Source: Streptomyces celluloflavus (lineage in GTDB: Bacteria > Actinomycetota > Actinomycetes > Streptomycetales > Streptomycetaceae). From it: DNA of 35,253 bases. The stretch is from assembly GCA_000720995.1 (NCBI GenBank), contig JOEL01000061.1, positions 1 through 35,253 on the forward strand, given 5' to 3'. The notes below the pieces were generated by a model. The model did no database searches. It saw only the letters and a list, made by a program, of their open reading frames with translations, and was not told where the DNA came from. Shown piece after piece: positions 1,034 to 27,055 of this stretch; position 1 is the stretch's first letter; each line of letters starts with the position of its first letter. The position numbers and the translations under genes were made by a program.

Positions 1034-3586
1034 ATGGCACGCGGCAAGCTACGGATATATCTCGGCGCGGCACCGGGCGTCGGCAAGACGTACTCGATGC
1101 TGTCCGAGGCGCACCGCCGGGTGGAGCGGGGTACGGACGCCGTCGTGGCGTTCGTCGAGCACCACGGCAGGCCCCGTACCGAGGTCATGCTGCACGGGCT
1201 GGAGCAGATCCAGCGCCAGGAGCTGGAGTACCGCGGGACGGTGTTCACCGAGATGGACGTGGACGCGGTCCTGGCGCGCCGGCCCGCCGTGGCGCTGGTG
1301 GACGAGCTGGCGCACACCAACGTCCCCGGTTCGCGCAACGCCAAGCGATGGCAGGACATCGAGGAGCTGCTGGAAGCCGGGATCGATGTGATCTCGACGG
1401 TCAACATCCAGCATCTGGAATCGCTCGGGGATGTCGTCGAGTCGATAACGGGGGTCCGTCAGCGGGAGACCGTGCCCGACGAAATCGTCCGCCGCGCCGA
1501 CCAGATCGAACTGGTCGACATGTCGCCACAGGCGATCCGCCGCCGGATGGCGCACGGCAACATCTACCAGCCCGACAAGGTGGACGCCGCCCTGTCCAAC
1601 TACTTCCGGCCGGGCAACCTCACGGCCCTGCGCGAACTGGCGCTGCTGTGGGTGGCCGACCGCGTCGACGAGTACTTGCAGCAGTACCGCGCCGAGCACT
1701 CCATCCGCTCCACCTGGCAGGCCCGTGAGCGCATAGTCGTCGGCCTCACCGGCGGCCCGGAGGGACGTACGCTGATCCGCCGCGCCGCCCGGATGGCCGC
1801 CAAGGGGTCGGGCAGCGAGGTGCTCGCCGTCTACATAGCGCGCAGCGACGGGCTGACGTCCGCCTCGCCCAAGGAACTCGCCGTCCAGCGGACGCTGGTG
1901 GAAGACCTGGGCGGTACGTTCCACCACGTCATCGGCGACGACATCCCCAGTGCGCTGCTGGAGTTCGCGCGGGGGGTGAACGCCACCCAGATCGTGCTGG
2001 GCTCCAGCCGCCGCAAGGCATGGCAGTACATGTTCGGGCCAGGGGTGGGGGCGCTCGTCGCCCGCGAGTCCGGGCCGGACCTGGATGTGCACATCGTCAC
2101 GCACGACGAGGTCGCGAAGGGCCGGGGGCTGCCGGTGGCGCGCGGTGCGCGGCTGGGCCGGGCCCGGATCATCGCCGGCTGGCTGGTCGGTGTCGTCGCG
2201 CCGGCCCTGTTGTCGCTGGGTCTCACCCGTCTCGCGCACGGTCCGGGCCTCGCCAATGACGTGCTGCTCTTCCTCTTCCTGACGGTGGCCGCGGCGCTGC
2301 TCGGCGGGCAGCTGCCGGCGCTGGCGTCGGCGGCCGTCGGCTCGCTGCTGCTCAACTTCTACTTCACGCCGCCCACCCACACCCTCACCGTCAACGACCC
2401 GCACAACCTCTTCGCCATAGTGATCTTCTTCTCGGTGGCGGTGTCGGTCGCCTCGGTGGTGGACCTCGCCGCGCGCCGTACCCATCAGGCCGCCAGGCTG
2501 CGCGCCGAGTCGGAGATCCTCTCGTTCCTCGCGGGCAGTGTGCTGCGCGGTGAGCAGACGCTGGACGCGCTGCTGGAACGGGTGCGGGAGACGTTCAAGA
2601 TGGAGACGGTGGCGCTGCTGGAGCGGCGCAGCGACGTCGATCCGTGGACGTGCGCGGGCCGGGCGGGCGGCACGGAGCAGAGTGCGCCGGTGCGCCCCGA
2701 GGACGCGGATGTCGACATGCCGGTCGGTGACCACATGGCGCTGGCGCTGACCGGCCGGGTGCTGCCCGCGGAGGACCGGCGGGTGCTGGCCGCGTTCGCC
2801 GCCCAGGCCGCCGTCGTCCTGGACCGGCAGCGGCTGGTGGGCGAGGCGGAGCGGGCCCAGGAGCTGGCCGAGGGCAACCGGATCCGGACGGCGCTGCTGG
2901 CCGCGGTCAGTCACGACCTGCGCACGCCGCTCGCCAGTATCAAGGCGTCGGTGACGTCCCTGCGCTCCGATGACGTGGCCTGGTCCGAGGAGGACGAGGC
3001 GGAGCTGCTGGCCGGTATCGAGGCGGGTGCGGACCGGCTGGACCATCTGGTCGGCAATCTGCTGGACATGTCCCGGCTCCAGACCGGCACGGTCACCCCG
3101 CTGATTCGGGAGATCGACCTCGACGAGGTGGTGCCGATGGCGCTCGGCGGGGTGCCGGAGGGCAGCGTCACGCTCGACATCCCCGAGGAGCTGCCGATCG
3201 TCGCCGTCGATCCGGGGCTACTGGAGCGTTCGGTGGCCAATCTCGTCGAGAACGCGGTGAAGTACAGCCCCGACGGCGAGACGGTGCTGGTCGCCGCCAG
3301 TGCGCTCGGCGACCGGGTGGAGCTGCGGATCGCGGACCGCGGACCCGGCGTTCCGGACAGCGCCAAGGACCGGATTTTCGAGCCGTTCCAGCGCTATGGT
3401 GACGCCCCGCGCGGCGCCGGTGTGGGCCTCGGTCTGGCCGTGGCGCGGGGCTTCGCGGAGGCGATGGGCGGCACGCTCGCCGCCGAGGACACCCCCGGAG
3501 GGGGGATGACGATGGTGCTCACGCTCCGGGCCGCGGCCGGCCGGCCGCCGGCCAGACCCGATCTTCCGGCCCAGGCCACGACATGA
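1034..3586 (+). CDS. kdpD: Sensor histidine kinase KdpD
   Basis: This is an 850-residue KdpD, the inner-membrane kinase that senses potassium limitation and phosphorylates KdpE. The N-terminal cytoplasmic KdpD domain carries a Walker A motif GAAPGVGKT (11-19) and the Walker-B-like VDELAHTNVPGSRN. A universal-stress-protein-like domain follows at about 235-360, then a cluster of hydrophobic segments (about 375-480) matching the four-helix DUF4118 region, a GAF-like linker, and the kinase core. The phosphoacceptor is His627 in SHDLRTPLASIKAS, and the HATPase shows an N box (VENAVKYSPDG) and late G boxes. The length is close to the roughly 895 residues of the E. coli protein. kdpE follows after 79 nt. 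The transporter genes kdpFABC are not next to it, which is unusual compared with kdpFABCDE operons. Confidence 0.95.
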   Translation: MARGKLRIYLGAAPGVGKTYSMLSEAHRRVERGTDAVVAFVEHHGRPRTEVMLHGLEQIQRQELEYRGTVFTEMDVDAVLARRPAVALVDELAHTNVPGSRNAKRWQDIEELLEAGIDVISTVNIQHLESLGDVVESITGVRQRETVPDEIVRRADQIELVDMSPQAIRRRMAHGNIYQPDKVDAALSNYFRPGNLTALRELALLWVADRVDEYLQQYRAEHSIRSTWQARERIVVGLTGGPEGRTLIRRAARMAAKGSGSEVLAVYIARSDGLTSASPKELAVQRTLVEDLGGTFHHVIGDDIPSALLEFARGVNATQIVLGSSRRKAWQYMFGPGVGALVARESGPDLDVHIVTHDEVAKGRGLPVARGARLGRARIIAGWLVGVVAPALLSLGLTRLAHGPGLANDVLLFLFLTVAAALLGGQLPALASAAVGSLLLNFYFTPPTHTLTVNDPHNLFAIVIFFSVAVSVASVVDLAARRTHQAARLRAESEILSFLAGSVLRGEQTLDALLERVRETFKMETVALLERRSDVDPWTCAGRAGGTEQSAPVRPEDADVDMPVGDHMALALTGRVLPAEDRRVLAAFAAQAAVVLDRQRLVGEAERAQELAEGNRIRTALLAAVSHDLRTPLASIKASVTSLRSDDVAWSEEDEAELLAGIEAGADRLDHLVGNLLDMSRLQTGTVTPLIREIDLDEVVPMALGGVPEGSVTLDIPEELPIVAVDPGLLERSVANLVENAVKYSPDGETVLVAASALGDRVELRIADRGPGVPDSAKDRIFEPFQRYGDAPRGAGVGLGLAVARGFAEAMGGTLAAEDTPGGGMTMVLTLRAAAGRPPARPDLPAQATT

Positions 3587-3665
3587 GCCGGGCCATCCGG
3601 GCCACACCCACCGACCGTCCCGCGGGCCGTGCCCGGCGGGGACCGACACCACGAGGAGAACGCCA

Positions 3666-4349
3666 GTGAACCGGGTGCTTGTGGTCGATGACGAGCCGCA
3701 GATCGTCCGCGCACTCGTGATCAACCTGAAGGCGCGCAAGTACGAGGTGGACGCCGCTCCCGACGGGGCCACCGCCCTCAAGCTGGCCGCGGCCCGCCAC
3801 CCCGACGTCATCGTCCTGGACCTGGGGCTGCCCGATATGGACGGCGTCGAGGTGATCAAGGGGCTGCGGGGCTGGACGCGGGTGCCGATCCTGGTGCTCT
3901 CCGCCCGGCAGACCTCCGACGAGAAGGTGGAGGCGCTGGATGCGGGCGCGGACGACTACGTCACCAAGCCGTTCGGGATGGACGAGCTGCTGGCCAGACT
4001 GCGGGCCGCGGTGCGAAGAGCCGAGCCGACCGGGCCGGCCGATGACGAGGTGATCGTGGAGACCGGCGGGTTCACCGTCGATCTCGCGGCGAAGAAGGTC
4101 AACCGCGAGGGCCGGGACATCCGGCTGACCCCGACCGAGTGGCATCTGCTGGAGGTCCTGGTCCGCAACGCGGGCCGGCTGGTCAGCCAGAAGCAGCTGC
4201 TCCAGGAGGTCTGGGGCCCGTCGTACGGCACGGAGACCAACTATCTGCGGGTCTACATGGCGCAGCTGCGCCGCAAGCTGGAGAGCGATCCCTCGCATCC
4301 GCGGCATTTCATCACGGAGCCGGGGATGGGGTACCGCTTCGAGCAGTGA
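3666..4349 (+). CDS. kdpE: Response regulator KdpE, OmpR/PhoB family
   Basis: A 227-residue two-domain response regulator. The receiver domain has the acidic pair D8/D9, phosphoacceptor D52 (in LDLGLPDMDG), the switch residue S79 and K101 (in VTKPFGMDELL). The C-terminal winged-helix DNA-binding domain (about 130-225) ends with the typical YLRVYMAQLRRKLE and GMGYRFEQ motifs of KdpE proteins. Translation starts at GTG 3666, with GAGGAG at about 3654-3659. It lies 79 nt downstream of kdpD on the same strand and is the obvious partner. In the known system KdpE-P activates kdpFABC; here the target genes must be elsewhere or may include neighbouring potassium genes, which is inference. Confidence 0.95.
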   Translation: MNRVLVVDDEPQIVRALVINLKARKYEVDAAPDGATALKLAAARHPDVIVLDLGLPDMDGVEVIKGLRGWTRVPILVLSARQTSDEKVEALDAGADDYVTKPFGMDELLARLRAAVRRAEPTGPADDEVIVETGGFTVDLAAKKVNREGRDIRLTPTEWHLLEVLVRNAGRLVSQKQLLQEVWGPSYGTETNYLRVYMAQLRRKLESDPSHPRHFITEPGMGYRFEQ

Positions 4350-5807: not shown

Positions 5808-6485
5808 TCAGCCTGTGGTGTCCTCGCGGCGGACCGACAGCAGGTCCTCCAGCTGCTCCTCGCGGGACTGGGCCGCGACGAACAGCAGCTCGTCGCCGGC
5901 TTCCAGCGCGTCCTCCTTGTTGGGGGTGAGCACCCGCGTGCCGCGGATGATCGTCACCAGGGAGGTGTCCTCGGGCCAGGCGACGTCGCCGACCCGGGTG
6001 CCGGCCAGCGCGGCCTCCGGGGGCAGCGTCAGCTCGACGAGGTTGGCGTCGCCGTGGCTGAAGCGCAGCAGCCGGACGAGATCGCCGACGCTCACCGCCT
6101 CCTCGACCAGCGCCGACATCAGGCGCGGCGTGGAGACCGCGACATCGACGCCCCACGCCTCGTTGAAGAGCCACTCGTTCTTCGGGTTGTTGACCCGGGC
6201 GACGACCCGGGGCACGCCGTACTCGGTCTTGGCGAGCAGCGAGACGACGAGGTTGACCTTGTCGTCGCCGGTCGCCGCGATGACGACGTTGCAGCGCTGG
6301 AGCGCCGCCTCGTCCAGCGAGGTGATCTCGCAGGCGTCGGCCAGCAGCCACTCCGCGAGGGGCACCCGCTCGACCGAGATGGCGGTCGGTGCCTTGTCGA
6401 TGAGCAGGATCTCGTGGCCGTTCTCCAGCAGCTCACCGGCGATGGAACGGCCCACCGCGCCCGCGCCCGCGATCGCGACCCTCAT
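5808..6485 (-). CDS. TrkA-family RCK protein (potassium channel/transporter regulatory subunit), CeoC-like
   Basis: A 225-residue cytoplasmic protein with one TrkA-N (Rossmann) and one TrkA-C domain, the usual KtrA/CeoB/CeoC layout. The nucleotide-binding loop is GAGAVG (7-12), with the acidic D30 at the end of the second strand that selects NAD-type ligands. The C-terminal part (about 145-215, GTRVGDVAWPEDTSLVTIIRG and EAGDELLFVAA) is the RCK_C fold, which in several bacteria binds c-di-AMP. Its ATG overlaps the stop of the upstream trkA gene by 4 nt (ATGA), so the pair is translationally coupled and probably forms a hetero-oligomer. No TrkH/KtrB pore subunit is encoded nearby, so the partner is unknown; the KimA-like permease 10 kb away is one candidate. 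Confidence 0.9.
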   Translation of the reverse strand: MRVAIAGAGAVGRSIAGELLENGHEILLIDKAPTAISVERVPLAEWLLADACEITSLDEAALQRCNVVIAATGDDKVNLVVSLLAKTEYGVPRVVARVNNPKNEWLFNEAWGVDVAVSTPRLMSALVEEAVSVGDLVRLLRFSHGDANLVELTLPPEAALAGTRVGDVAWPEDTSLVTIIRGTRVLTPNKEDALEAGDELLFVAAQSREEQLEDLLSVRREDTTG

Positions 6486-7150
6486 GCGTGCGCCTCCTCG
6501 GGACCTTCGGCGAATGCCGCTTCGACCTTCTCGACGTCATCGGCGCGCATCATCACATGCACCAGATCGCCTTCCTGGAGCACCGTCTGCGACGTCGGCA
6601 GCATCGCCTCGCCCAGCCGGGTGAGGAAGGCGACGCGGACGCCGGTCTCCTCCTGGAGCGTGCTGATCTTGTGGCCGACCCAAGACGCGGAGGTGTGCAC
6701 CTCGGCGAGCTGGACGGCGCCGCTGGGATCCCGCCACAGCGGCTCGGCGCCCGAGGGCAGCAGCCGGCGCAGCATCTGGTCCGCCGTCCAGCGGACGGTG
6801 GCGACGGTGGGGATGCCCAGGCGCTGGTAGACCTCGGCGCGCCGGGGGTCGTAGATCCGGGCCGCGACGTTCTCGATGCCGAACATTTCGCGGGCCACCC
6901 GGGCGGCGATGATGTTGGAGTTGTCACCGCTGGAGACGGCGGCGAAGGCGCCCGCCTCCTCGATGCCGGCTTCGCGCAGCGTGTCCTGGTCGAAGCCGAC
7001 GCCGGTCACCCGGCGGCCGCCGAAGGCGGAGCCCAGGCGGCGGAACGCGGTCGGGTCCTGATCGACCACCGCGATGGTGTGCCCCTGGCTCTCCAGGGTC
7101 TGCGCGAGCGCGGAGCCCACGCGCCCACACCCCATGATGACGATGTGCAT
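6482..7150 (-). CDS. TrkA-family RCK protein, CeoB-like (first gene of trkA pair)
   Basis: A 222-residue second RCK protein with the same two-domain layout as its neighbour: Rossmann loop GCGRVG (7-12) and acidic D30 in VVDQD, then an RCK_C domain with EEAHA at the end. The start at 7150 gives MHIVIMGCGRVG, the expected TrkA N-terminus; upstream in-frame sequence does not look like protein. The two genes overlap by 4 nt (6482-6485). Together they match the CeoB/CeoC pair of actinobacteria, thought to gate potassium uptake in response to NAD(H) and possibly c-di-AMP. They run divergently from pucR across a 616-nt gap. Confidence 0.9.
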   Translation of the reverse strand: MHIVIMGCGRVGSALAQTLESQGHTIAVVDQDPTAFRRLGSAFGGRRVTGVGFDQDTLREAGIEEAGAFAAVSSGDNSNIIAARVAREMFGIENVAARIYDPRRAEVYQRLGIPTVATVRWTADQMLRRLLPSGAEPLWRDPSGAVQLAEVHTSASWVGHKISTLQEETGVRVAFLTRLGEAMLPTSQTVLQEGDLVHVMMRADDVEKVEAAFAEGPEEAHA

Positions 7151-7766
7151 GCTGATTACCCCGTGCTTCGGACTAGCGCGTTGACCTGCACAAACACCCT
7201 GCTCACTACTCTTTTCTCCAACTACCGGCAACACGGAGCTACGGCTCGCGACGGGGACCTGGCGCGTCGACGACGATGTCACGCGCACGGCGGTCCGGTA
7301 CAACCGTAGCCGCATTGCCGCGTCCGGCAGGGGGCGCGGTCGGCCCCGCCGGATGCGGGCGGGCCCGGCGCCGTCGCGGCGGTGCGCCGGTGCGCGCCCG
7401 TGGGGCCCGCCGCGCGGTGTCTCCCACCGGCCCCGGGACGCGTACGGCGCCCCCCGCGTAACCGCATCACGCGTCCCGCATCGCCCATCCGGCCCCCCTT
7501 CCGCAGGTCTTCCACGGGGCCGCCCACCGGATCGCGCCGCGCCCATCTGCCGCCCGCCATCCGCCGGGGCCGGGCTATCCGGTGACCCGGTGTCGGCGCA
7601 CTGCCGGGATCCGGCAAGATTGGGGCGGTCCCGATGTCCGGGACCTGGCAACCAAGGCGTGAGGAGTACGTGACGTGGTGGGTGTGCGTGGGGGAGGACG
7701 GCCGGTGCCGGACCGGTTGCGGCCCACCGGAGCGGGCGGCGCGGCGGCTGCGCGTGGCGGTGCCCG
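7151..7766. other. Divergent intergenic region between the trkA pair and pucR
   Basis: No convincing gene is visible. The region holds a near-perfect palindrome at 7601-7617 (listed separately) and a looser relative at about 7315-7330 (TTGCCG-N4-CGGCAG). A strong ribosome-binding-site-like GAGGAG (7661-7666) precedes a GTG at 7670, but this GTG is out of frame with pucR. The remainder is GC-rich with no other motif I can support. Confidence 0.5.
7601..7617. promoter_or_regulatory. Candidate PucR operator (autoregulatory copy)
   Basis: The sequence CTGCCGG-GAT-CCGGCAA is a palindrome with a 3-nt centre, 150 nt upstream of the pucR start. It differs in one half-site base from the palindrome upstream of the yqiJ-like gene (8997-9015). 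Two such sites flanking the regulator gene suggest a shared operator, with autoregulation here. Confidence 0.55.
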
Positions 7767-8888
7767 ATGACCCGTGCCAGCACCTCCGCGGCCGCCATCT
7801 CCGCCGACTTCCTGGACGGCTACGCCACGCTCCTCAGCGAGGTCTCCGCGACCGGGCGGCTGCCCCGCCGCCCCGAACTGGACGCGATGCGCGACCTGGG
7901 GGAGCGGGCCGCCGAGGCCGGACACGGGCTGCGCGAACTCGTCGGCCTCTTCCTGGGGGAGACCCGCCGCGTCTGGGGCACCCTCCCCGGTGTGGCGCGG
8001 GCGGCCGGCGCCGCCGAACGCGTCAGGACCGGCGACGCGGTGCTGGGCGCCGTCGATGCGGCGATCGCCGCGCTCGGTGAAGGCCACGAGCGCGCCCAGC
8101 GGCTCTCGGTGCGCCAGGAGGAGGCCGCCCGCCGGGAGTTCGTCGACGATCTGCTGTACGGGCGCAGCGACCTGGGGCGGCTGGCCGAGCGCGCCGAGCG
8201 GTTCGGGCTGCGGCTGGCCCATGAGCACGCGGTCGCGGTCGCCGAGGGCGAGGAGCCCTTCGACGATGTGCATCCCCTCGCCCGGCGGGTGGAGCGCGAA
8301 CTGGTCGGCCGCTTCGGCGACCGCGATGTGCTGATCACCACCAAGGAGGGCCGGCTGATCTGTGTCGGTGCCAGCAGTGAAGGCGCCGTCCTGGACGCCT
8401 TCGCGGCCTGCGCGCGCCGGCCGGACGCCGGCCGGCCGGCCGCCGGCCGGGTGGCCATCGGTCGGCCGCACTCCGGTGCGGGCGGTGTGGTGCGCTCCTA
8501 CGAGGAGGCGCTGAGCGCCCTGGACCTGGCGCAGCAACTGGAGCTGGCCGAACCGGTGCTGCGCGCCGCGGAGCTGCTGGTCTTTCCGGTGCTGCTGCGC
8601 GACCGGGCGGCCATGGCCGATCTCGTCCGCACCGTGCTGGGGCCGCTGACGCAGGCCCGCGGCGGGGCCGGGCCGCTGCTGGAGACGCTCACGGCGTGTG
8701 CCGCGGCGGGCTATGTCAACGCCGAGGCCGCCCGCCGGCTCCAGGTGAGCGTGCGCACCCTGTCCTACCGGCTGGAGCGCATCAAGTTCCTGACGGGCTA
8801 CGACCCGTCGGACGGTCTGCAGCGGTACTCGCTGGAGACCGCGGCGATGGGCGCCCGCCTGCTGGGGTGGCCCGACAAGCCCCTGTAG
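7767..8888 (+). CDS. PucR-family transcriptional regulator
   Basis: A 373-residue regulator. The C-terminal helix-turn-helix (about 310-345) carries the characteristic YVNAEAARRLQVSVRTLSYR followed by LERI, typical of PucR/CdaR-type proteins. The middle (about 120-290) resembles the GGDEF-like ligand domain of this class, and the helical N-terminus resembles RsbRD-type domains found in Streptomyces PucR-like proteins. The ATG at 7767 is forced: a stop lies in frame at 7671 and no other start codon occurs between. Its ribosome-binding site is poor. It precedes the yqiJ-flotillin genes by about 200 nt on the same strand, and a matching palindrome occurs before both, so it is a plausible direct regulator of that module. 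The inducer is unknown. Confidence 0.85.
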   Translation: MTRASTSAAAISADFLDGYATLLSEVSATGRLPRRPELDAMRDLGERAAEAGHGLRELVGLFLGETRRVWGTLPGVARAAGAAERVRTGDAVLGAVDAAIAALGEGHERAQRLSVRQEEAARREFVDDLLYGRSDLGRLAERAERFGLRLAHEHAVAVAEGEEPFDDVHPLARRVERELVGRFGDRDVLITTKEGRLICVGASSEGAVLDAFAACARRPDAGRPAAGRVAIGRPHSGAGGVVRSYEEALSALDLAQQLELAEPVLRAAELLVFPVLLRDRAAMADLVRTVLGPLTQARGGAGPLLETLTACAAAGYVNAEAARRLQVSVRTLSYRLERIKFLTGYDPSDGLQRYSLETAAMGARLLGWPDKPL

Positions 8889-8984: not shown

Positions 8985-9021
8985 GAACACATAAAGATTG
9001 CCGGGTTCCGGCAATGTGTTC
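8985..9021. promoter_or_regulatory. Nested palindrome upstream of the yqiJ-flotillin module (candidate PucR operator)
   Basis: The core ATTGCCGG-GTT-CCGGCAAT (8997-9015) is a perfect inverted repeat with 8-bp arms. It is framed by a second inverted repeat, GAACAC (8985-8990) and GTGTTC (9016-9021), separated on the left side by ATAAAG. It lies 72-108 nt before the start at 9093. The core matches the palindrome upstream of pucR except for one base in the shared TTGCCGG-N3-CCGGCAA consensus. Confidence 0.6.
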
Positions 9022-9092
9022 GAGACCCCCGTGGTGCGAGGATCCTGCCATCGACAGCAGCACGTCAGCGGCACCGCAACGGGGGCATGATC

Positions 9093-9686
9093 ATGGGTGA
9101 TTTTCTGCGCGCCGCGCTCACCTTCCCCGCGGCGCTGTTCAGCTTCGCGCTGCTGGTGATCGCCGGGTACTGGCTCCTGGTACTGATCGGCGGCGCCGGC
9201 GTGCACATCCTCGACGGGGGTGAGGGTGCGCACGGCGACACCGCCGAGACGGCCGGGCTGCCGGTGACGGTGACCCTTTCCCTGGGGATCCTCATCGCCT
9301 GGCTCGTCAGCCTGGCCGGCGCCGCGCTGACCGGCAGCACCCCGCTGCGCGCCGCCACACTGGCCGTGGCGCTGGCCGCCGCCTGGGCCGGCACCCGGCT
9401 CGCCGTCCGCCTGGCCCGGCGGATGCTGCCCCCTGAACGGGTCGCCTCCCGGGACGACTTCGTCGGCCGATTGTGCGTCATCCGCACCGGCCGGGTCGCC
9501 CACGACTTCGGCCAGGCCGAGGTGCGCGCCGAGGACGGCTCCACCGCGATCGTGCAGGTGCGCTGCGAGGAGACCGGACTGACCGCGGGCAGCAGCGCCC
9601 TCATCTTCGACTACGACGCCGACGGCGAGTTCTTCCGGGTCGCGCCCTACGACAGCGCGCTCGACCCGCACCGGTCCGCCGGCTGA
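9093..9686 (+). CDS. YqiJ-like membrane protein with C-terminal OB-fold
   Basis: A 197-residue protein (199 if the ATG at 9087 is used). GGGGG at 9081-9085 fits a start at 9093 (7-nt spacing) better than 9087. Three hydrophobic helices are visible at about 6-32, 57-78 and 86-105. A soluble C-terminal domain (about 118-190) has the strand pattern of an OB/NfeD-like fold: GRLCVIRTGRVAHDFGQAEV then IVQVRCEE and EFFRVAPYD. This matches the YqiJ family, which in E. coli is encoded directly before the flotillin YqiK. NfeD/YqiJ proteins are thought to anchor or assist flotillin assemblies in the membrane. The flotillin gene follows after 135 nt on the same strand. Confidence 0.8.
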   Translation: MGDFLRAALTFPAALFSFALLVIAGYWLLVLIGGAGVHILDGGEGAHGDTAETAGLPVTVTLSLGILIAWLVSLAGAALTGSTPLRAATLAVALAAAWAGTRLAVRLARRMLPPERVASRDDFVGRLCVIRTGRVAHDFGQAEVRAEDGSTAIVQVRCEETGLTAGSSALIFDYDADGEFFRVAPYDSALDPHRSAG

Positions 9687-9821
9687 GGAACCGCCCGGCG
9701 CCCGCCACCGCAGGCCCGCCGGCGGCACCGGACACCCGCTCCGCCGCCCCGCCCGCCGCGGCTTCGCCCTGCGCGCTCCGTACGCGCCGTCAACTTCCCG
9801 AACCGACACAGGGATTCACCG

Positions 9822-11963
9822 ATGGATGCCATCACCGTAGGAATCGGCGTGACCGTCGCCGTCGTCGTACTCATCGTGCTGGTGGCGGTGTTCGCCGTCA
9901 CCCGCCTCTACCGCAAGGTCAACCAGGGCCAGGCGCTGATCGTCTCCAAGTACCGCAAGGTCGATGTCACCTTCACCGGCGCCGTCGTGCTGCCCGTGCT
10001 GCACAAGGCCGAGGTGATGGACATCGCGGTGAAGACCATCGAGATCGGCCGCACCGGCCGCGAGGGCCTGATCTGCCAGGACAACATCCGCGCCGATATC
10101 CGCATCGCGTTCTTCGTCCGGGTCAACAAGACCAAGGAGGACGTGGTGAAGGTGGCCCAGGCGATCGGCACCGAGCGCGCCAGCCACGACAGCACCCTCC
10201 AGGAACTGTTCAACGCGAAGTTCTCCGAGGCGCTCAAGACCGTCGGCAAGCAGCTGGACTTCCAGGACCTCTACACGATGCGGGACGAGTTCCGGGACCG
10301 CATCATCGCCGTCATCGGCACCGATCTGAACGGCTACAGCCTCGAAGACGCGGCCATCGACTACCTGGAGCAGACCCCGCTCGCCCAGCTCGACAGCTCC
10401 AACATCCTCGACGCCCAGGGCATCCGCAAGATCACCGAGCTGACCGCGATCGAGCACGTCCGCACCAACGAGTACCAGCGCAACGAGGAGAAGGAGATCA
10501 CCCGGCAGAACGTCGACGCCCGGGAGGCCGTCCTGGAGCTGGAGCGCCGGCAGGCCGACGCGGAGATCAAGCAGCAGCGCGAGATCGAGACCGTACGGGC
10601 CAGGGAAGAGGCCGAGACGGCGCGCGTCCAGGCCGAGGAGCGGCTGCGCTCGCACTCCGCGCACCTCAAGACCGAGGAATCGCTCGGCATCCAGAACGAG
10701 AACCGCGAGCGGGAGATCGCCGTGGCGGTCAAGAACCGCGAGCGGGTCATCGCCATCGAGAGCGAGCGCATCGAGAAGGACCGGCTGCTGGAGGTCATCG
10801 CCCGCGAGCGCGAGACGCAGCTGTCGCGGATCGCCGCCGACAAGGAGGTCGAGGCGGAGAAGCGGGAGATCGCCGATGTGATCCGGGAGCGGATCGCGGT
10901 CGAGAAGACCGTCGCCGCCCAGGAGGAGGAGATCAAGAAGCTGCGCACGGTCGAGGAGGCCGAGCGGGAGCGCCAGTCGCTGATCATCCGCGCCGAGGCG
11001 GAGGCCCAGCAGCGGCTGGTCAAGGACATCAAGGCGGCCGAGGCAGCCGAGCAGGCGGCCACCCACCGCGCCGCCGAGGAGATGACCCTCGCCGAGACCC
11101 GCCACAAGACCGCGGAGCTGGACGCCCAGGCCAAGATCCGGCTCGCCGAGGGCGTCCAGGCGGAGGCGGCCGCGGCCGGCCTGGCCGACGTCCGGGTCCG
11201 CGAGATGAACGCCCAGGCCATCGAGAAGTCCGGGCTCGCCGAGGCCGAGGCGGCCGGCGCGCTGCTCCGGGCCGAGGCCGAGGGCGCCCGCGCCAAGGCG
11301 CTGGCGGACGCCGAGGGCACCAAGGCCCAGGCGCTCGCGGACGCCGTCGCCATCGGCGAGAAGCTCAAGGCCGAGGCGGCCGGGCTCACCGAGAAGGCCG
11401 CGGCGATGGCCGCACTGGACGCGGCGAGCCGCGAGCACGAGGAGTACCGGCTGCGGCTGGCGGCCGAGAAGGAGATCCGGCTGGCGGACATCGACGTCCG
11501 GCGCCAGGTGGCCGAATCGCAGGCGACGGTGCTGGCCACCGGCCTGGAGAACGCCCGGATCGACATCGTCGGCGGCGAGAGCACCTTCTTCGACAAGCTG
11601 GTCGGTTCCATCGGCGCCGCCAAGGGTCTGGACGCGCTGGTCGACCGCTCCGAGACGGTGCGCACCGTCGCGGGCCCCTGGCTCGACAAGGAGCACTCCA
11701 CCTTCACCAGGGACCTCGGCGCCATGGTCGGCGGTTTGGGGGCGGCCGGGCTGCGGGACCTGACCCTGGCCGGTGCGCTCGGCCGGCTGATCGCGGACGG
11801 CGGTCCGCAGGCCGGTCCGTTGCAGGGCCTGCTGGAGTCCGTACGGGCGAGCGGGCTGGCCGAGACCCGGCTCGCGGACCTGGCCGGCGCGCTGCCGGCG
11901 CAGGCGGGCGGCGCCGGGGTGAACGGGACCGCGGTGCCCGCCGCCGGGGCTCCCGGCAAGTAG
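9822..11963 (+). CDS. Flotillin (SPFH/Band 7), YqiK type
   Basis: A 713-residue flotillin. A single N-terminal membrane helix (about 5-27) precedes the SPFH/PHB domain (about 30-200, from NQGQALIVSKYRKVDVTF to the segment ending LEDAAIDYLEQ). A long coiled coil spans about 225-560 and is extremely rich in Glu, Ala, Arg and Lys. The C-terminal 130 residues include the conserved-looking NARIDIVGGESTFFDKLVGS and a Gly/Ala-rich tail. Flotillins assemble into large membrane scaffolds. The ribosome-binding site is modest (AGGG about 9 nt before ATG 9822). The gene lies between the YqiJ-like protein and a giant AAA+ protein, and a strong hairpin follows it, so expression may be stepped. Confidence 0.92.
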   Translation: MDAITVGIGVTVAVVVLIVLVAVFAVTRLYRKVNQGQALIVSKYRKVDVTFTGAVVLPVLHKAEVMDIAVKTIEIGRTGREGLICQDNIRADIRIAFFVRVNKTKEDVVKVAQAIGTERASHDSTLQELFNAKFSEALKTVGKQLDFQDLYTMRDEFRDRIIAVIGTDLNGYSLEDAAIDYLEQTPLAQLDSSNILDAQGIRKITELTAIEHVRTNEYQRNEEKEITRQNVDAREAVLELERRQADAEIKQQREIETVRAREEAETARVQAEERLRSHSAHLKTEESLGIQNENREREIAVAVKNRERVIAIESERIEKDRLLEVIARERETQLSRIAADKEVEAEKREIADVIRERIAVEKTVAAQEEEIKKLRTVEEAERERQSLIIRAEAEAQQRLVKDIKAAEAAEQAATHRAAEEMTLAETRHKTAELDAQAKIRLAEGVQAEAAAAGLADVRVREMNAQAIEKSGLAEAEAAGALLRAEAEGARAKALADAEGTKAQALADAVAIGEKLKAEAAGLTEKAAAMAALDAASREHEEYRLRLAAEKEIRLADIDVRRQVAESQATVLATGLENARIDIVGGESTFFDKLVGSIGAAKGLDALVDRSETVRTVAGPWLDKEHSTFTRDLGAMVGGLGAAGLRDLTLAGALGRLIADGGPQAGPLQGLLESVRASGLAETRLADLAGALPAQAGGAGVNGTAVPAAGAPGK

Positions 11964-12080
11964 GCCCGAGGGCGGGGGAGCGGCGGTCCGGGGGCACGGG
12001 GGAGACCGCCGCGGGGGAAACAGGGCGGGGGGCGGGGGAAACGGGGTGCGGCGGCCGGTCCGCCGCAGCGGGAGCGGGGC

Positions 12081-12132
12081 GCGGGGCAGGTGGTGCGTGG
12101 TGACCGGGGGGTTCCACGCACCACCGCCCCGC
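12081..12132. terminator. Very strong hairpin between flotillin and AAA+ genes (terminator or attenuator)
   Basis: GCGGGGC (12081-12087), a single bulged A (12088) and GGTGGTGCGTGG (12089-12100) pair perfectly with CCACGCACCACC (12114-12125) and GCCCCGC (12126-12132) around a 13-nt loop. That is 19 bp of nearly pure G-C pairing. The stem ends 22 nt before the AGGAG of the ATPase gene. It could end flotillin mRNA, allow partial read-through, or protect a 3' end after processing. Confidence 0.75.
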
Positions 12133-12166
12133 CCGCCGCACATCGGCAGGGAGCAGGAGCAGGGAG

Positions 12167-15100
12167 ATGGGGAACGTGAACGCCGACAGCGCACCGCGCA
12201 CGCCGGACGAGACCCCGGGCACGGCCACGCCCGGCGGCGGGCTGGAGGCCGGCACCTACGAGGTGCTGCGGGACCGGCTGGCCGCGGCCGCCGGGGAACT
12301 CACCGCCCGCGCCCAGGCGCTCAACGCCCGCCGCCTCCAGACCTTCGGCGGCACCGAACTGGCGCTGCTGGCCGCCGACCGGCTGCGCACCGGCGAGGCG
12401 TGCGTACCCCGCGATGTGGTGCAGGTCGGCGGACTGCTGCTGTTCGGCCACCACCCGCCCGCGACGGCGGGGGAGCCGACCGCCGTCGCCGACGTCTTCG
12501 CGCTCCACCGGCGCACCGGCGACCGCTTCGAGGCGGCCGGCCCCGACGCGCTGCCCGGCCTGCTCGACGACCCGCGCTTCGTCCGCGACTTCGACGAACT
12601 GCACCGCTACTACCGCCAGGCCCGGCTGCTCCAACTGCGCCGCACCGGCGCCCTGCTGCTCGCCGTCTTCCGCACCGGCGAACGGCTCACCGACATCCGG
12701 GTGCTGCGCTGGCAGCTCGCCGCCGACGGCACCCCCGGCTACCTCGACGCCAAGGGCGAACGGGACCACACCTTCCCGCCCGCGCACGACCTCACCTGGA
12801 CCCCGGCCACCCGCGAGGACCACGTCCCCGGCCGCCATCCGCACATCGCCGTCCAGGGCGCCGTCTACGTCTCCACCTCCGGCGGGGTGCTCACCCTCAA
12901 GGCCGAGGACGACACCGGCACCGCCGACGGCATCCACACCGAACCCGTCGACGAGCCGTTGCAGTCGCTGGCCGACGCCGAGGTCGCGCACGCCCGGGTC
13001 GGGCCGCTGATCCTGCTGCGGATCCGCCCGTACAAGGAGAGCGCCCACCGCTACCTCGTCTTCAACACCCGCACCCGTCAGGCGTGCCGCCTCGACGGCA
13101 TCGGGCAGGCGTGCCGGGCGCTCCCCGAGGACCAGGGCATCGTCTTCCCCGGCGGCTACTACCTCACCACCGGCACCACCAAGACCTTCGACACCGACAC
13201 CACGGACCTCGAATTCGAGCGGGCGGTGTTCTCCCCGAACGGTGAGGACCTCCTCTACGTCTTCCACGCCCGTGCCGCGGGCCGCACTCTGCTGCTGCCC
13301 TACAACGTGATCCGCGAGGAGGCCGCCGCCCCGCTCACCGCCCACGGCTACGCCCTCTTCGACGACGGCACCATGGCCGTGCTGCGCGCCCAGGGCACCG
13401 ATCCCGCCCGCGTCCACCCGGTCCAGGTCTGGCGCACCCCCTTCACCTCCGACGCGTACGCCGCGGCCCAGCCCGAGGGCGACGGGCCGCTGGCCAGGAT
13501 CGGCAACGCCGAACTCGTCCGCGGGATCTCCGACGCGCTCGCGGTGGCCCGGATGGCCGCCGAGATGGCACCGGCCGGCGCCGTCTTCACGGCCATCGAG
13601 GCCGCCGCGACCCGCGCCGCCGACGGCCACCACTGGCTCGGCGAGGCCGAACTCGGCACACTGGCCGAGCCGTTGGAGGCGGTCCGGGCCACCGCCGCGC
13701 AGGTCATCGACGAGTTCGAGCGGGTCACCGAACTCCGCGCGCGGGCCGCCCAGCAGCTCGCGGAGGCCGACACCCGCACCACCGCCCTGGTCCGCAGGGT
13801 CCGCGGCGACCAGCCCGGCACCGCCGACGCCTGGGTCCGCAACCTCGCCGAACTCCGGCACGCCCAGGGCCACTTGGCGACCCTGCGGGAGATCCGCCAT
13901 ATCGACCTGGACCGGATCGACGCGCTGTCCGCGGCGCTCACCGACGACCTGGCCGCCACCGGCCGCCGCGCCGTCGCCTTCTTCAGCGGCGACGACGCCT
14001 TCACCGCCACCCACCGCACGGTCGCCGAACTCACCGCCGAGGCCGCGGCCGTGCCCACCGTGGCCGAGGCCGCGCCCCTGGCGGAGCGGATCGACGCCCA
14101 GGCCGACGGACTGCGCATCGTCACCGAGGTCGTCGGCACCCTCGACCTGGCCGACACGACCGTACGGACCTCCATCCTGGCCCGCATCGGGGACGTACTG
14201 GGCGCCGTCAACCGGGCCCGCGCCACCCTCGACGCCCGCCGCCGCACGCTCGCCGAGGCCGAGGGCCAGGAGGAGTTCGCCGCCCAGTTCGCGCTGCTCG
14301 GGCAGGCGGTGGCGGGCGGCCTGGCCGCCGCGGCCACCCCCGAGGAGTGCGACGAACAGCTCGGCCGGCTGCTCCTCCAGGTCGAGAACCTCGAAGCGCG
14401 CTTCGGCGGCCTGGAGAGCTCCGGCGCCCCGGAGCACGGCGGCGCCCCGCCCGCCCAGGACGACCGGCTGGAGCGCATCGCCGCCCAGCGCGAGGAGATC
14501 TACGAGGCGTTCGCCGCCCGCAAGCAGGCCCAGCTCGACGCCCGCGCCCGGCACACCGACCGGCTCGTCGAGTCCGCCCGGCGCGTCCTGGCCACCGTCA
14601 CCCGGCGCGCCCGCGCGCTCGGCACCCTCGACGAGGTCAACGCCTACTTCGCCGCCGATCCGCTGGTCGCCAAGGTCCAGGCCACCGCCGGTGAACTGCG
14701 CACACTCGCCGACCCGGTGCGCGCCGACGAGCTGGCCGGCCGCCTGACGGCCGCCCGCCAGGAAGCCGCCCGCGCGCTCCGCGACCGCGCCGACCTCTAC
14801 GACGAGACCGGCACCATCCGCCTGGGCCGGCACCGCTTCGCCGTCAACACCCAGCCCGTCGACCTCACCCTCGTCCCGTACGAGGGGCAGCTCGCCTTCG
14901 CCGTCACCGGCACCGACTACCGCGCCGCGGCCCGCGACGAGCGGCTCACCGCCGACCGCGCGTTCTGGGACCAGCCGCTGGTCTCCGAATCGCCCGCCGT
15001 CTACCGGGCCGAGCACCTCGCCGCCCTCCTCCTGGCGCGCGCCGAGGCCGGCGAGGACGCGCTCACCGTGGCCGCGCTGCACACCGCGGCCGCCGACGGC

Positions 15101-17104
15101 ACCCTGCACACCCTCGTCCGGCAGGCCGCCGAGGCCCGCTACGACGAGGGCTACGACCGCGGTGTCCACGACCACGACGCCACCGCCGTGCTCACCGCGC
15201 TGCTGCGGCTGCGCGCGGCGGCCGGACTGCTGCGCTTCACCCCGAGCACCCGCGCCGCCGCCCAGCTCTTCTGGCACCACGGCACCGACCCCCACGCCCG
15301 CACCCGGTGGACCACCCGCGCGCACTCCCTGGCCCGCGCCCGCGCCCACTTCGGCCGCACCGCCGCGGCCGGCGACCTCGCCGCCGAGCTGTCCGACGCG
15401 GCGGCCGGTTTCCTGGCGGCCGCCGGACTGCTCCCGGACGGCGCCGGGACCGCGACTGCCGGACTGCCGGCCGTCGGCAGCTACCTCTTCGAGGAACTGG
15501 CCACCGGCAGCCCCCGCTTCGCCACCGGCTCCGCCGCCCGCGCCCTGCTCGCCGGCTTCCACCGCGCCCTGGGCGGCCCCGAGGCGCCCGCGGTCAAGGA
15601 GTTCGCCGAGGACCTGCGGGCGCTCGGCGCCGACGGGCTCCCCGGCGCCGAGCACCTCGCCGCCCGCCACCAGCTGGTCACCGGCTGGCTCGGCGCGTAC
15701 GCCGACGCCCGCGACGCCCCGCGCGAGGACCTCGCCGAGGCCGTCGCGATCGAGGTGTGCGGCCCCGCACTCGCCCGGCGCGAGATCGACGACCCGGTCG
15801 GCTGCGCCGTCGAAGGACTGCTCGGCAGCCATCCGCGGATCGCGGCCGACGGGACACTGCCGGTCCGCATCGACGAGCTGCTCGCCCGGACCGACGACTT
15901 CCGCACCACCCGCGTCCCCGCCCACCGCGCCTACACCCGCCGGCGCACCGAACTGCTGGACGCCGAGCGCCGCCGCCTCCAGCTGGCGCGCTACCGCCCC
16001 GAGGTCATGCCGGCCTTCGTCCGCAACCGCCTGATCGACGAGGTCTACCTGCCCCTCATCGGCGACAACCTCGCCAAGCAGCTGGGCGCCGCGGGGGAGG
16101 CGCGGCGCACCGACAGCCAGGGACTGCTGCTGCTCCTGTCCCCGCCCGGCTACGGCAAGACGACGCTGATGGAGTACGTCGCGGCCCGGCTCGGCCTGGT
16201 CCTGGTCAAGGTCGACGGCCCGGCGCTCGGCCACGGCACCACCTCCCTCGACCCGGCCGCGGCCCCCGACGCCGCCGCCCGCCGCGAGGTGGCGAAGATC
16301 TCCTTCGCCCTGGAGATGGGCAGCAACGTGCTGCTCTACCTGGACGACATCCAGCACACCTCGCCCGAGCTGCTCCAGAAATTCATCCCGCTCTGCGACG
16401 CGCAGCGGCGGATGGAGGGCGTGTGGGACGGCGAAGCCCGCAGCTACGACCTGCGCGGCAAGCGGTTCGCGGTCTGCATGGCGGGCAACCCGTACACCGA
16501 GTCCGGGGGGCGCTTCCGGCTGCCGGACATGCTCGCCAACCGGGCCGACGTCTGGAACCTCGGCGATGTCCTCGCCGGCAAGGAGGCGCTCTTCGCGCTC
16601 TCGCACATCGAGAACGCGCTGACCGCCAACCCGGTCCTGGCCCCGCTCGCCGCCCGCGACCGCGCCGACACCGACCTGCTGGTACGGCTCGCCCGCGGCG
16701 ACGCGACGGCCCGCGCCGACCGGCTCGCCCACCCCTACACCCCGGCCGAGCTCGACCAGATCCTGGCCGTGCTGGCCAAGCTGCTGCACGTCCAGGAGAC
16801 CGTGCTGGCCGTCAACCGCGCCTATATCGACTCCGCCGCGCAGGCCGACGCCACCCGCACCGAGCCGCCGTTCCTCCTCCAGGGCTCGTACCGCAACACC
16901 AACAAGCTCGCCGCCCGCATCGTCCCCGTGATGAACGCCACGGAAGTCGAGGCGCTGATCGACGACCACTACCGCGGCGAGGCCCAGACCCTGACGAGCG
17001 GCGCCGAGGCCAACCTCCTCAAGCTCGCGGAGCTGCGCGGCCGCCTCACCGAGGAACAGGCCCGCCGCTGGCACCAGGTGAAGGCGGGGTGGCGGGAGCA
17101 CTGA
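12167..17104 (+). CDS. Giant AAA+ ATPase (DUF3686-type, often called DNA repair ATPase)
   Basis: A 1,645-residue protein starting at ATG 12167, with AGGAG 7 nt upstream. The first 430 or so residues resemble the DUF3686 beta-rich domain of proteins automatically named DNA repair ATPase. Long helical, probably coiled-coil regions rich in Ala, Arg and Glu occupy about 450-1000. The AAA+ domain is C-terminal: Walker A PPGYGKTT with K1331, Walker B LLYLDDIQ with D1393-D1394, and sensor-1-like AGNP at 1439-1442, followed by RLPDMLANRAD. The GNP motif and spacing recall MoxR-class ATPases. No nuclease or helicase motif is seen, so a DNA-repair role is not supported by sequence. Its position directly behind flotillin suggests a remodelling ATPase acting with the membrane scaffold. 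It has no membrane segment of its own. Confidence 0.85.
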   Translation: MGNVNADSAPRTPDETPGTATPGGGLEAGTYEVLRDRLAAAAGELTARAQALNARRLQTFGGTELALLAADRLRTGEACVPRDVVQVGGLLLFGHHPPATAGEPTAVADVFALHRRTGDRFEAAGPDALPGLLDDPRFVRDFDELHRYYRQARLLQLRRTGALLLAVFRTGERLTDIRVLRWQLAADGTPGYLDAKGERDHTFPPAHDLTWTPATREDHVPGRHPHIAVQGAVYVSTSGGVLTLKAEDDTGTADGIHTEPVDEPLQSLADAEVAHARVGPLILLRIRPYKESAHRYLVFNTRTRQACRLDGIGQACRALPEDQGIVFPGGYYLTTGTTKTFDTDTTDLEFERAVFSPNGEDLLYVFHARAAGRTLLLPYNVIREEAAAPLTAHGYALFDDGTMAVLRAQGTDPARVHPVQVWRTPFTSDAYAAAQPEGDGPLARIGNAELVRGISDALAVARMAAEMAPAGAVFTAIEAAATRAADGHHWLGEAELGTLAEPLEAVRATAAQVIDEFERVTELRARAAQQLAEADTRTTALVRRVRGDQPGTADAWVRNLAELRHAQGHLATLREIRHIDLDRIDALSAALTDDLAATGRRAVAFFSGDDAFTATHRTVAELTAEAAAVPTVAEAAPLAERIDAQADGLRIVTEVVGTLDLADTTVRTSILARIGDVLGAVNRARATLDARRRTLAEAEGQEEFAAQFALLGQAVAGGLAAAATPEECDEQLGRLLLQVENLEARFGGLESSGAPEHGGAPPAQDDRLERIAAQREEIYEAFAARKQAQLDARARHTDRLVESARRVLATVTRRARALGTLDEVNAYFAADPLVAKVQATAGELRTLADPVRADELAGRLTAARQEAARALRDRADLYDETGTIRLGRHRFAVNTQPVDLTLVPYEGQLAFAVTGTDYRAAARDERLTADRAFWDQPLVSESPAVYRAEHLAALLLARAEAGEDALTVAALHTAAADGTLHTLVRQAAEARYDEGYDRGVHDHDATAVLTALLRLRAAAGLLRFTPSTRAAAQLFWHHGTDPHARTRWTTRAHSLARARAHFGRTAAAGDLAAELSDAAAGFLAAAGLLPDGAGTATAGLPAVGSYLFEELATGSPRFATGSAARALLAGFHRALGGPEAPAVKEFAEDLRALGADGLPGAEHLAARHQLVTGWLGAYADARDAPREDLAEAVAIEVCGPALARREIDDPVGCAVEGLLGSHPRIAADGTLPVRIDELLARTDDFRTTRVPAHRAYTRRRTELLDAERRRLQLARYRPEVMPAFVRNRLIDEVYLPLIGDNLAKQLGAAGEARRTDSQGLLLLLSPPGYGKTTLMEYVAARLGLVLVKVDGPALGHGTTSLDPAAAPDAAARREVAKISFALEMGSNVLLYLDDIQHTSPELLQKFIPLCDAQRRMEGVWDGEARSYDLRGKRFAVCMAGNPYTESGGRFRLPDMLANRADVWNLGDVLAGKEALFALSHIENALTANPVLAPLAARDRADTDLLVRLARGDATARADRLAHPYTPAELDQILAVLAKLLHVQETVLAVNRAYIDSAAQADATRTEPPFLLQGSYRNTNKLAARIVPVMNATEVEALIDDHYRGEAQTLTSGAEANLLKLAELRGRLTEEQARRWHQVKAGWREH

Positions 17105-17220: not shown

Positions 17221-19272
17221 GTGTCCAAACTGACCGACGTGCCCAAACGGATCCTGATCGGGCGCGCGCTGCGCAGCGACAAGCTGGGGGAAACGCTTCT
17301 CCCCAAGCGCATCGCACTCCCCGTCTTCGCCTCCGACCCGCTCTCCTCCGTGGCCTACGCGCCCGGCGAGGTGCTGCTCGTCCTGTCCGTCGCGGGTGTG
17401 TCGGCCTACCACTTCAGCCCCTGGATCGCCCTCGCGGTCGTGGTGCTGATGTTCACCGTCGTGGCGTCGTACCGGCAGAACGTGCACGCCTACCCGAGCG
17501 GCGGCGGCGACTACGAGGTCGCCACCACCAACCTCGGGCCCAAGGCCGGTCTGACCGTCGCCAGCGCCCTGCTGGTCGACTACGTGCTGACCGTCGCGGT
17601 CTCCATCGCCTCCGGAGTGGAGAACCTGGGCTCCGCGATCCCCTTCGTCGTCGAGCACAAGACGCTCTGCGCCATCGGGATCATCGTGCTGCTGACGCTG
17701 ATGAACCTGCGCGGCGTCAAGGAATCGGGCAAGCTCTTCGCGATCCCGACGTACATCTTCGTGGCCGGCGTCTTCATCATGATCGCCTGGGGCGCGTTCC
17801 GCGGCCTGGTGCTCGGCGACACCATGAAGGCCCCCACCGCAGACTTCACCATCCACGCCGAACAGGGCGGACTGGCCGGCTTCGCGCTGGTCTTCCTGCT
17901 GCTGCGCGCGTTCTCCTCCGGCTGTGCCGCGCTCACCGGCGTCGAGGCGATCAGCAACGGCGTCCCCGCCTTCCGCAAGCCGAAGTCGAAGAACGCCGCG
18001 AGCACCCTCGCGCTCATGGGCGGCCTGGCCGTCACCATGTTCTGCGGCATCATCGCGCTGGCCATGGCCACCAACGTCAAGATGGCGGAGTCCCCGGCCA
18101 AGGACCTGCTGCACAACGGCACCCCGGTCGGCGCGGGCTACACCCAGAACCCGGTCATCTCGCAGGTCGCGGAGGCGGTCTTCGGCAACGGCTCGTTCCT
18201 GTTCGTGGTGCTCGCCGCCGCCACCGCGCTGGTCCTCTTCCTCGCCGCCAACACCGCCTACAACGGCTTCCCGCTGCTCGGCTCGATCCTCGCCCAGGAC
18301 CGCTACCTGCCCCGCCAGCTGCACACCCGCGGCGACCGGCTGGCCTTCTCCAACGGCATCGTGCTGCTGGCCGGCGCCGCCGCCGTCCTGGTCTACGTCT
18401 ACGGTGCGGACTCCACCCGGCTGATCCAGCTCTACATCGTGGGCGTCTTCGTCTCCTTCACGCTCAGCCAGATCGGCATGGTCCGGCACTGGAACCGCCA
18501 CCTGCTGACCGAGAAGGACGCCGCCAAGCGCCGCCGCATGCACCGCTCGCGGGCCATCAACGCCTTCGGCGCCACCCTCACCGGCCTGGTCCTCGTCGTC
18601 GTCCTGCTGACGAAGTTCACCCACGGCGCCTGGGTGGCGCTGCTGGGCATGGTCATCTTCTTCGTCACGATGTCCGCGATCCGCCGCCACTACGACCGGG
18701 TCGCCGACGAGATCGCCGCCGAGGACACCCCCGACGACGACGTCGTCCGGCCCTCCCGGGTGCACTCCCTCGTCCTGGTCTCCAAGGTTCACAAGCCCAC
18801 CCTGCGCGCCCTGAACTACGCCAAGCTGATGCGCTCGGACACCCTCGAAGCGGTCAGCGTGGACGTGGACCCCGCCGAGACCAAGGCCCTGCGGGCGGAG
18901 TGGGAACGCCGCGGCATCGAGGTCCCCCTCAAGGTCCTCGCCTCCCCGTACCGCGAGATCACCCGGCCGATCATCGACCACGTCAAGTCGCTGCGCCGGG
19001 AGAGCCCCCGCGACGCGGTCTCCGTCTACATCCCCGAGTACGTCGTCGGCCACTGGTACGAGCACCTGCTGCACAACCAGAGCGCGCTGCGCCTCAAGGG
19101 CCGGCTGCTGTTCACCCCCGGCGTCATGGTCACCTCCGTGCCCTGGCAGCTGGACTCCTCCGAGGCCGCCAAGAAGCGCGCCCGCAAACGCGCGGAGTGG
19201 AACGCTCCGGGCGCGGTCCGCCGCGGACCGGTCACCCCGCCCAAGAAGGAGAAGTCCGCCACGAAGAAGTAG
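17221..19272 (+). CDS. APC-superfamily permease, KimA-like potassium importer candidate
   Basis: A 683-residue permease starting at GTG 17221. The membrane part (about 30-490) shows some twelve hydrophobic helices and the APC first-helix motif FASDPLSSVAYAPGE. A cytoplasmic C-terminal region (about 510-660) contains strands and helices such as VHSLVLVSKVHKPTLRALNY, consistent with the USP-like domain of KimA (YdaO). KimA of Bacillus subtilis is a proton-coupled, c-di-AMP-inhibited K+ importer of about 607 residues. The tail here is longer and ends in a Lys-rich stretch. The neighbourhood (kdpDE, two RCK proteins) agrees with a potassium role, but many actinobacterial relatives are annotated only as APC permeases and an amino-acid substrate is not excluded. 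Confidence 0.8.
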   Translation: MSKLTDVPKRILIGRALRSDKLGETLLPKRIALPVFASDPLSSVAYAPGEVLLVLSVAGVSAYHFSPWIALAVVVLMFTVVASYRQNVHAYPSGGGDYEVATTNLGPKAGLTVASALLVDYVLTVAVSIASGVENLGSAIPFVVEHKTLCAIGIIVLLTLMNLRGVKESGKLFAIPTYIFVAGVFIMIAWGAFRGLVLGDTMKAPTADFTIHAEQGGLAGFALVFLLLRAFSSGCAALTGVEAISNGVPAFRKPKSKNAASTLALMGGLAVTMFCGIIALAMATNVKMAESPAKDLLHNGTPVGAGYTQNPVISQVAEAVFGNGSFLFVVLAAATALVLFLAANTAYNGFPLLGSILAQDRYLPRQLHTRGDRLAFSNGIVLLAGAAAVLVYVYGADSTRLIQLYIVGVFVSFTLSQIGMVRHWNRHLLTEKDAAKRRRMHRSRAINAFGATLTGLVLVVVLLTKFTHGAWVALLGMVIFFVTMSAIRRHYDRVADEIAAEDTPDDDVVRPSRVHSLVLVSKVHKPTLRALNYAKLMRSDTLEAVSVDVDPAETKALRAEWERRGIEVPLKVLASPYREITRPIIDHVKSLRRESPRDAVSVYIPEYVVGHWYEHLLHNQSALRLKGRLLFTPGVMVTSVPWQLDSSEAAKKRARKRAEWNAPGAVRRGPVTPPKKEKSATKK

Positions 19273-24340: not shown

Positions 24341-24344
24341 TCAG
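24320..24344 (-). terminator. Likely terminator of the biosynthetic operon
   Basis: CTGACCGG (24320-24327) pairs perfectly with CCGGTCAG (24337-24344) around a 9-nt loop. The right arm includes the stop codon of the acyl-AMP ligase gene (24341-24343). Its position at the end of eight co-directional genes supports a terminator, though the stem is short. Confidence 0.45.
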
Positions 24345-25966: not shown

Positions 25967-25984
25967 GTACGTGATCCCCGTCTA

Positions 25985-26016
25985 CTCGTCCGCTCGTCCG
26001 CTCGTCCGCTCGTCCG
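25985..26016. repeat. 8-bp tandem repeat, four perfect copies
   Basis: CTCGTCCG is repeated four times without a mismatch between the desaturase stop (26026) and the FAAL start (25966). On the coding strand it reads CGGACGAG. Copy number of such a repeat can vary by slippage; here it could alter spacing or structure just ahead of the FAAL start. Confidence 0.9.
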
Positions 26017-26025
26017 GTGGCCGGG

Positions 26026-27042: not shown

Positions 27043-27055
27043 GTACCTGTGCCTC

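Follow-up and report, generated by a model that had tools for sequence, protein, structure and literature searches.

The stretch of DNA analysed here, hereafter the window, comprises 35,253 nucleotides of contig JOEL01000061.1 of Streptomyces celluloflavus (assembly GCA_000720995.1) and carries four genes that were called on the + strand in the order PucR-type regulator, YqiJ-like membrane protein, flotillin and DUF3686/AAA+ protein. The regulator gene occupies positions 7767 to 8888 and its product combines GGDEF_2 (1e-18) and HTH_30 (2.9e-12) domains of Pfam. It is followed by the gene of the YqiJ-like protein (9087 to 9686, with an ATG at 9087 or 9093), by that of a YqiK-type flotillin made of an SPFH domain and a long coiled coil (9822 to 11963), and by that of a DUF3686-DUF7902-AAA+ protein of 1645 residues (12167 to 17104). 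A preliminary description of this DNA had placed a YqiJ-like protein, a flotillin and a 1,645-residue AAA+ protein in this order behind a regulator, and all four genes are confirmed; the span that it gave, 9093 to 17104, contains the three genes of the module, whereas the PucR gene lies outside it.

The two smaller products of the module are recognized through their families. As single sequences, the YqiJ-like protein has no Pfam or NCBIfam match and the flotillin nothing over the cut-offs of these two collections, and PADLOC likewise yielded no usable match for either. A 14-member profile of the former matches E. coli YqiJ moderately (hhalign probability 90.9%, E 1.1e-6), and a 14-member profile of the latter matches E. 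coli YqiK over 382 columns (hhalign 99.9%, E 9.7e-34); moreover, the flotillin homologue borne by plasmid pQBR103 yields a Band_7 match at 9.3e-11. The third protein is identified directly by Pfam, with matches to DUF3686 (1.1e-187), DUF7902 (1.2e-27) and AAA_5 (4.6e-6). Its DUF3686 domain, encoded by positions 12296 to 13633 (+ strand), is a β-propeller according to Ravi et al. (PMC11237479), and its AAA+ core (residues 1321 to 1449) is encoded by positions 16127 to 16513 (+ strand). Of the 46 full-length relatives, which represent 46 of 47 loci once the locus with a broken ATPase gene (L060) is dropped, 45 or more retain residues K1331, T1332, D1393, D1394, N1441 and R1459; because these residues serve nucleotide binding and hydrolysis, the DUF3686/AAA+ protein is likely an active ATPase. 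Neither a protease domain nor a transmembrane family was found on it by Pfam and NCBIfam. Sequence searches of the PDB returned nothing at 0.01 for the flotillin, two chance-level matches only for the YqiJ profile, matches confined to the Walker A stretch for the ATPase (RuvB, Rix7, AFG2 and similar), and no relative for the profile of its N-terminal part (best E 0.19); none of these searches gave a solved relative that would place the ATPase in an AAA+ clade.

The three genes form a linked unit well beyond the window, as the preliminary description had supposed. In all 47 distinct loci (37 from Streptomyces, the others from Nonomuraea, one other actinomycete genus, Deinococcus (two), Hymenobacter and Gammaproteobacteria (five)), DUF3686 is preceded by a flotillin gene of the same orientation, and a YqiJ homologue is detected in 36 of them, namely 26 of 37 in Streptomyces and 10 of 10 elsewhere; the ATPase thus does not occur mostly without flotillin and YqiJ, as a refutation of the linkage would have required. 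In genome G239, of the same genus as the window, the module is identical over the part compared to that of Streptomyces aureus NRRL B-1941 (L022 and L063). Among 61 genomes, of which 37 belong to the genus of the window (20 with the module, 17 without) and 24 lie outside it, flotillin and DUF3686 occur together in the same 20 and are both missing from the other 41 (Fisher 2e-16). Two module-less genomes, G036 (L092) and G026 (L101), have lost the flotillin and the ATPase jointly and kept PucR and YqiJ; in G036 this happened at the window's own site, where ATPase scraps remain. Elsewhere the module ATPase gene of L060 is broken in two frames, with pieces of PucR on either side. A homologue of DUF4396 occurs nearby in four module loci with no detected YqiJ (L023, L026, L027 and L028); in L023 this four-transmembrane protein is encoded immediately upstream of the flotillin and is a possible replacement for the YqiJ partner.

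In the window, the module is an insertion of about 10 kb into a K+-related locus. The inserted DNA, PucR included, extends from about 7.23 to 17.17 kb between two elements of the core locus, a TrkA pair (5808 to 7150, − strand) and an APC/K_trans-type permease (17221 to 19272, + strand). This permease, whose gene follows the module on its 3' side, shows 81-93% identity in 19 relatives, and in 12 of these 19 the distance between TrkA and permease is 121-566 bp. The same site holds the decayed module in G036, about 7 kb of other DNA in G018 and about 1.4 kb in G009. On the TrkA side of the module lie the genes of a KdpD-type K+ sensor kinase (1034 to 3586; PF02702, 3e-98) and of its adjoining response regulator (1034 to 4349 together), and no tRNA that could mark an insertion site was found within the window. 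In other strains the module occupies different chromosomal sites and is also plasmid-borne (the plasmid collection gave 12 matches, of which 11 were retrieved, H8 being left out), and in a sample of the phylum Actinomycetota it was found in 9 of 396 genomes and 2 of 236 genera.

By sequence identity, the PucR of the window is a member of its own subfamily: it is 56-86% identical over its full length to the PucRs of 27 related loci, and its next-best match in its own genome reaches 38% over 105 residues. This subfamily is present in 20 of 20 module genomes, in 6 of the 17 genomes of the genus that have no module (Fisher 1.4e-5) and in none of the 24 genomes outside it. PucR lies inside the fetched stretch in 28 of the 37 Streptomyces module loci and is adjacent to the module in 21, where 17 are divergent and four, that of the window included, co-directional. 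No PucR stands next to the module in the ten loci outside Streptomyces. The dedicated regulator announced by the preliminary description therefore holds for Streptomyces and not beyond it. In Hymenobacter (L034:2577-3362), the gene of a LexA-family regulator stands upstream of a Tir-PspA-YqiJ-flotillin-ATPase row; regulators seem to have been swapped between lineages.

The predicted operator of this regulator is an inverted repeat, ATTGCCGGnnnCCGGCAAT, which was first noticed by reading the upstream regions and which in the window forms the perfect palindrome ATTGCCGGGTTCCGGCAAT at positions 8997 to 9015, ahead of the operon; a second copy with two mismatches lies at 7600 to 7618 upstream of pucR, where the fixed offset holds no −10-like element. 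Two copies are thus observed in the window for 0.15 expected. With up to two mismatches, the repeat is present in 33 of the 37 module loci of Streptomyces and in 8 of 10 loci where PucR lies apart from any intact module (these PucR-only loci of the scan include L103 to L106, from genomes with the module elsewhere), in none of the ten module loci outside Streptomyces, and in none of 40 control regions totalling 796 kb of the same genomes, where even three mismatches give no site; with up to three mismatches, it precedes the operon in all 37 Streptomyces loci. A de novo count of palindromes ranks ATTGCCG with a 5-nt gap at the top, in 14 of 37 upstream regions, the maxima for comparison being 2-3 in 10 shuffles and 3 in the control.

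The alignment of the upstream regions reads, in order, GTAAAG, the palindrome, ATGCG, about 19 nt and a −10-like box [CT]AnnAT, with GGCAT also upstream. This box stands at +41 in 33 of 37 loci, against a background of 0.15%, and in the window the hexamer GAGGAT (9038 to 9043, + strand) lies at the conserved offset with three of the four conserved bases. Because the palindrome covers the −35 position, this geometry suggests that the predicted binding would activate transcription. Furthermore, a shifted variant, [TG]TTGCCGnnnnnCGGCAAA, is found 111-150 bp upstream of three of the four examined PucR paralogues of about 50% identity (the fourth, L106, has no variant site), which fits the idea of a site that tracks its regulator.

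Copies of the palindrome also precede PucR genes and genes of other kinds. Six sites stand before a second NfeD-type gene, which is followed, where seen (L102), by a Band_7/Flot protein. With up to three mismatches, the palindrome lies 132-135 bp before a Na_H_Exchanger antiporter gene, a spacing constant in eight loci which common descent may explain, because the antiporters are 84-100% alike; another site is found near an RCK protein. The second NfeD-like gene was noted beside PucR or the palindrome at L102:4454-6505, L101:1-1440, L030:16175-16711 and L098:7631-8203, and in L102 the NfeD-like gene and the Band_7 and Flot protein occur without the ATPase. An island in L166 (G006:C4) groups antiporters, a PucR paralogue, two NhaA, AlsT, RCK and an NfeD-like gene; three of these are preceded by weak palindromes.

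The association with ion transport also appears in the position of the module. In the 20 module genomes, at most 15 kb from DUF3686, there are at least 10 Na_H_Exchanger genes for 0.58 expected and at least 8 TrkA_N genes for 0.70 expected, the counts near the module obtained from PF00999 and PF02254 being lower bounds, and 4 NhaA genes for 0.13 expected (recounted totals: TrkA_N 195, NhaA 37); the control family Xan_ur_permease gives 0 for 0.39 expected. Ion-transport exemplars occur near the module in 21 of 37 loci and in none of 40 controls, a comparison biased by the choice of the exemplars, so that the argument is built on the counts by family.

The model that we favour, and to which we give somewhat better than an even chance, combines these elements in a transferable YqiJ-flotillin-AAA+ remodelling module which would be activated by PucR via ATTGCCGGnnnCCGGCAAT and deployed with cation homeostasis. 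Flotillins form membrane scaffolds and AAA+ proteins pull or remodel their substrates. In Streptomyces, the PucR-type activator would bind ATTGCCGGnnnCCGGCAAT over the −35 position and switch the operon on; in some strains, the same PucR would control its own gene, the second NfeD/flotillin pair and the cation/H+ antiporter or RCK genes. Since antiporter and RCK genes would share this regulator, the module would answer an ionic or membrane-energy stress, for which the GGDEF-like domain of PucR is a possible sensor. The flotillin would act as a membrane-anchored scaffold, with the small YqiJ-like protein as its partner in the membrane. The ATPase would be recruited to this scaffold, where it would take apart or rebuild scaffold polymers or membrane proteins and not degrade them, remodelling being more likely than degradation because no protease domain was found. 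A broader proposition, in which a PucR regulon couples flotillin/NfeD scaffolds and a non-proteolytic AAA+ protein to K+/Na+:H+ antiport in a transferable response to ionic or membrane-potential stress, is put forward more tentatively, as possible rather than probable.

Several parts of this arrangement have precedents. The pairing of a membrane partner with a flotillin (YqiJ-YqiK, YuaF-FloT; SPFH2/NfeD2) is documented in the earlier literature (PMC2636767), and here too, as in E. coli YqiJ-YqiK and B. subtilis YuaF-FloT, the membrane partner comes first and the flotillin second. In E. coli K-12, however, no ATPase gene follows yqiK, whose product has 553 residues where the flotillin of the window has 713; the deletion of E. 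coli yqiK gave no growth phenotype in one study (PMC10434171). The HflKC-FtsH complex offers another SPFH assembly that works with an AAA+ protein, and we infer a likeness in logic, with no sequence kinship shown, to an ATPase which, unlike FtsH, has no detected protease domain or transmembrane family. The PucR of the window shares the GGDEF_2 and HTH_30 architecture of PucR/CdaR-type activators and differs from them by its own subfamily and by its predicted targets, a membrane scaffold and ion genes.

The closest precedent is the operon of a flotillin, a YqiJ/YuaF protein and an AAA+ protein that Ravi et al. (2024) describe as associated with the phage-shock-protein (PSP) response, with and without a CesT/Tir-PspA dyad (PMC11237479). 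All three components are found here, the YqiJ/YuaF-type membrane protein at moderate strength, and the likeness covers the three protein types and their linkage, the abbreviated form included. The three-gene core is thus already published, and the earlier view of it as hardly described has to be given up. Beyond that operon stand the PucR regulator, the conserved predicted operator and promoter, the insertion site and the clustering with ion genes; the main text of Ravi et al. contains neither the word PucR nor the word Streptomyces, a search on DUF3686 returned no paper, and one on PucR with flotillin, from which subscription journals were largely absent, gave only unrelated titles. This control layer and context were not found in the literature searched.

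The precedent nevertheless supplies the first alternative, in which the module is a PSP-like envelope-stress chaperone that works with a PspA from another locus, and in which PucR and the ion genes are mere neighbours of no functional significance. Ravi et al. propose that abbreviated operons may act with a distant PspA (PMC11237479); Tir-PspA stands directly upstream of the module in Hymenobacter, PspA occurs in the same gene row on pQBR103, and the genome of the window has one PspA gene. Against it, no PspA was seen among the annotated surrounding genes of the Deinococcus and Streptomyces plasmid loci, the vicinity of the module is enriched in ion families and not in the control transporter family, and the palindrome precedes both PucR and the operon. 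Nor does the analogy with PspA-type systems drawn in the preliminary description find a basis at the locus, since no CesT/Tir-PspA dyad turned up among the genes that were called in the window and scanned, and the sole PspA_IM30 gene of the genome lies on another contig. We regard this alternative as somewhat unlikely.

Could the palindrome be the site of another factor or a terminator hairpin, with PucR a passenger that regulates something else? It does figure in a listing of terminator-like elements, on the minus strand, and in nine of the 37 Streptomyces module loci the site is present when no PucR lies within the fetched stretch. However, the palindrome keeps a fixed spacing to the −10-like box, the genes on its two sides diverge and need no terminator between them, it precedes PucR genes located elsewhere than at the module and has variants before diverged PucRs, and two of these nine loci, L047 (G019) and L054 (G034), belong to genomes that encode PucR at another place, which makes this explanation quite improbable. 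A cassette-borne system of defence or conflict, as the preliminary description also envisaged, would accord with the patchy distribution (20 of 37 genomes of the genus), the plasmid copies, the variable chromosomal sites and the loss events, but it is very improbable and unsupported by a PADLOC search that gave weak IetA matches only, in the Walker A region (best E 0.0022, 33 residues), by the absence of module homologues at E 1e-5 from 50,697 phage records, two results that do not exclude defence, and by neighbours which, as seen without a PADLOC scan of them, are transporters and not defence genes.

To return to PucR-activated remodelling deployed with cation homeostasis, a number of observations besides the nine loci without a nearby PucR weigh against it. 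YqiJ is undetected in 11 of 37 Streptomyces module loci, and PucR occurs in six genomes that have no module. The site scan covered only module loci, PucR loci and control regions of the same genomes; the −10-like box matches at three of four bases in the window, L028 and L059 and is one base out of register in L046, and the sites before PucR and antiporter genes mostly have no −10 at the offset of the operon. The loci are related by ancestry, so that the P values overstate their independence. As regards ion transport, the Pfam families were picked after a first look and in related genomes, the seven exemplars were selected from the module loci themselves, and all seven are missing from the vicinity of 16 of 37 module loci. 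Finally, eight ion-gene stretches elsewhere in the genome of the window contain no palindrome, so that in this strain location is the sole footing of the ion link.

To our knowledge, clear inducing signals and partners are lacking for bacterial flotillins. The flotillin described here has an ATPase partner, a regulator, an exact predicted operator and a promoter geometry, which render its control testable, and the clustering with antiporter and TrkA genes hints at the first stress to try. If the broader proposition is true, the regulon would be an actinobacterial counterpart of the membrane maintenance performed by ESCRT- and PSP-type systems, endowed with its own sensor and operator. The DUF3686 ATPase, which annotation labels a 'DNA repair ATPase', would shift from DNA repair to membrane biology.

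At the far end of the window, positions 24341 to 35253 carry on the minus strand genes of an AMP-ligase, of amine and FAD oxidoreductases, of a KAS III-type enzyme and of an acyltransferase-ACP-thioesterase type, a group that probably represents the terminal part of a polyketide cluster, truncated where the contig stops.

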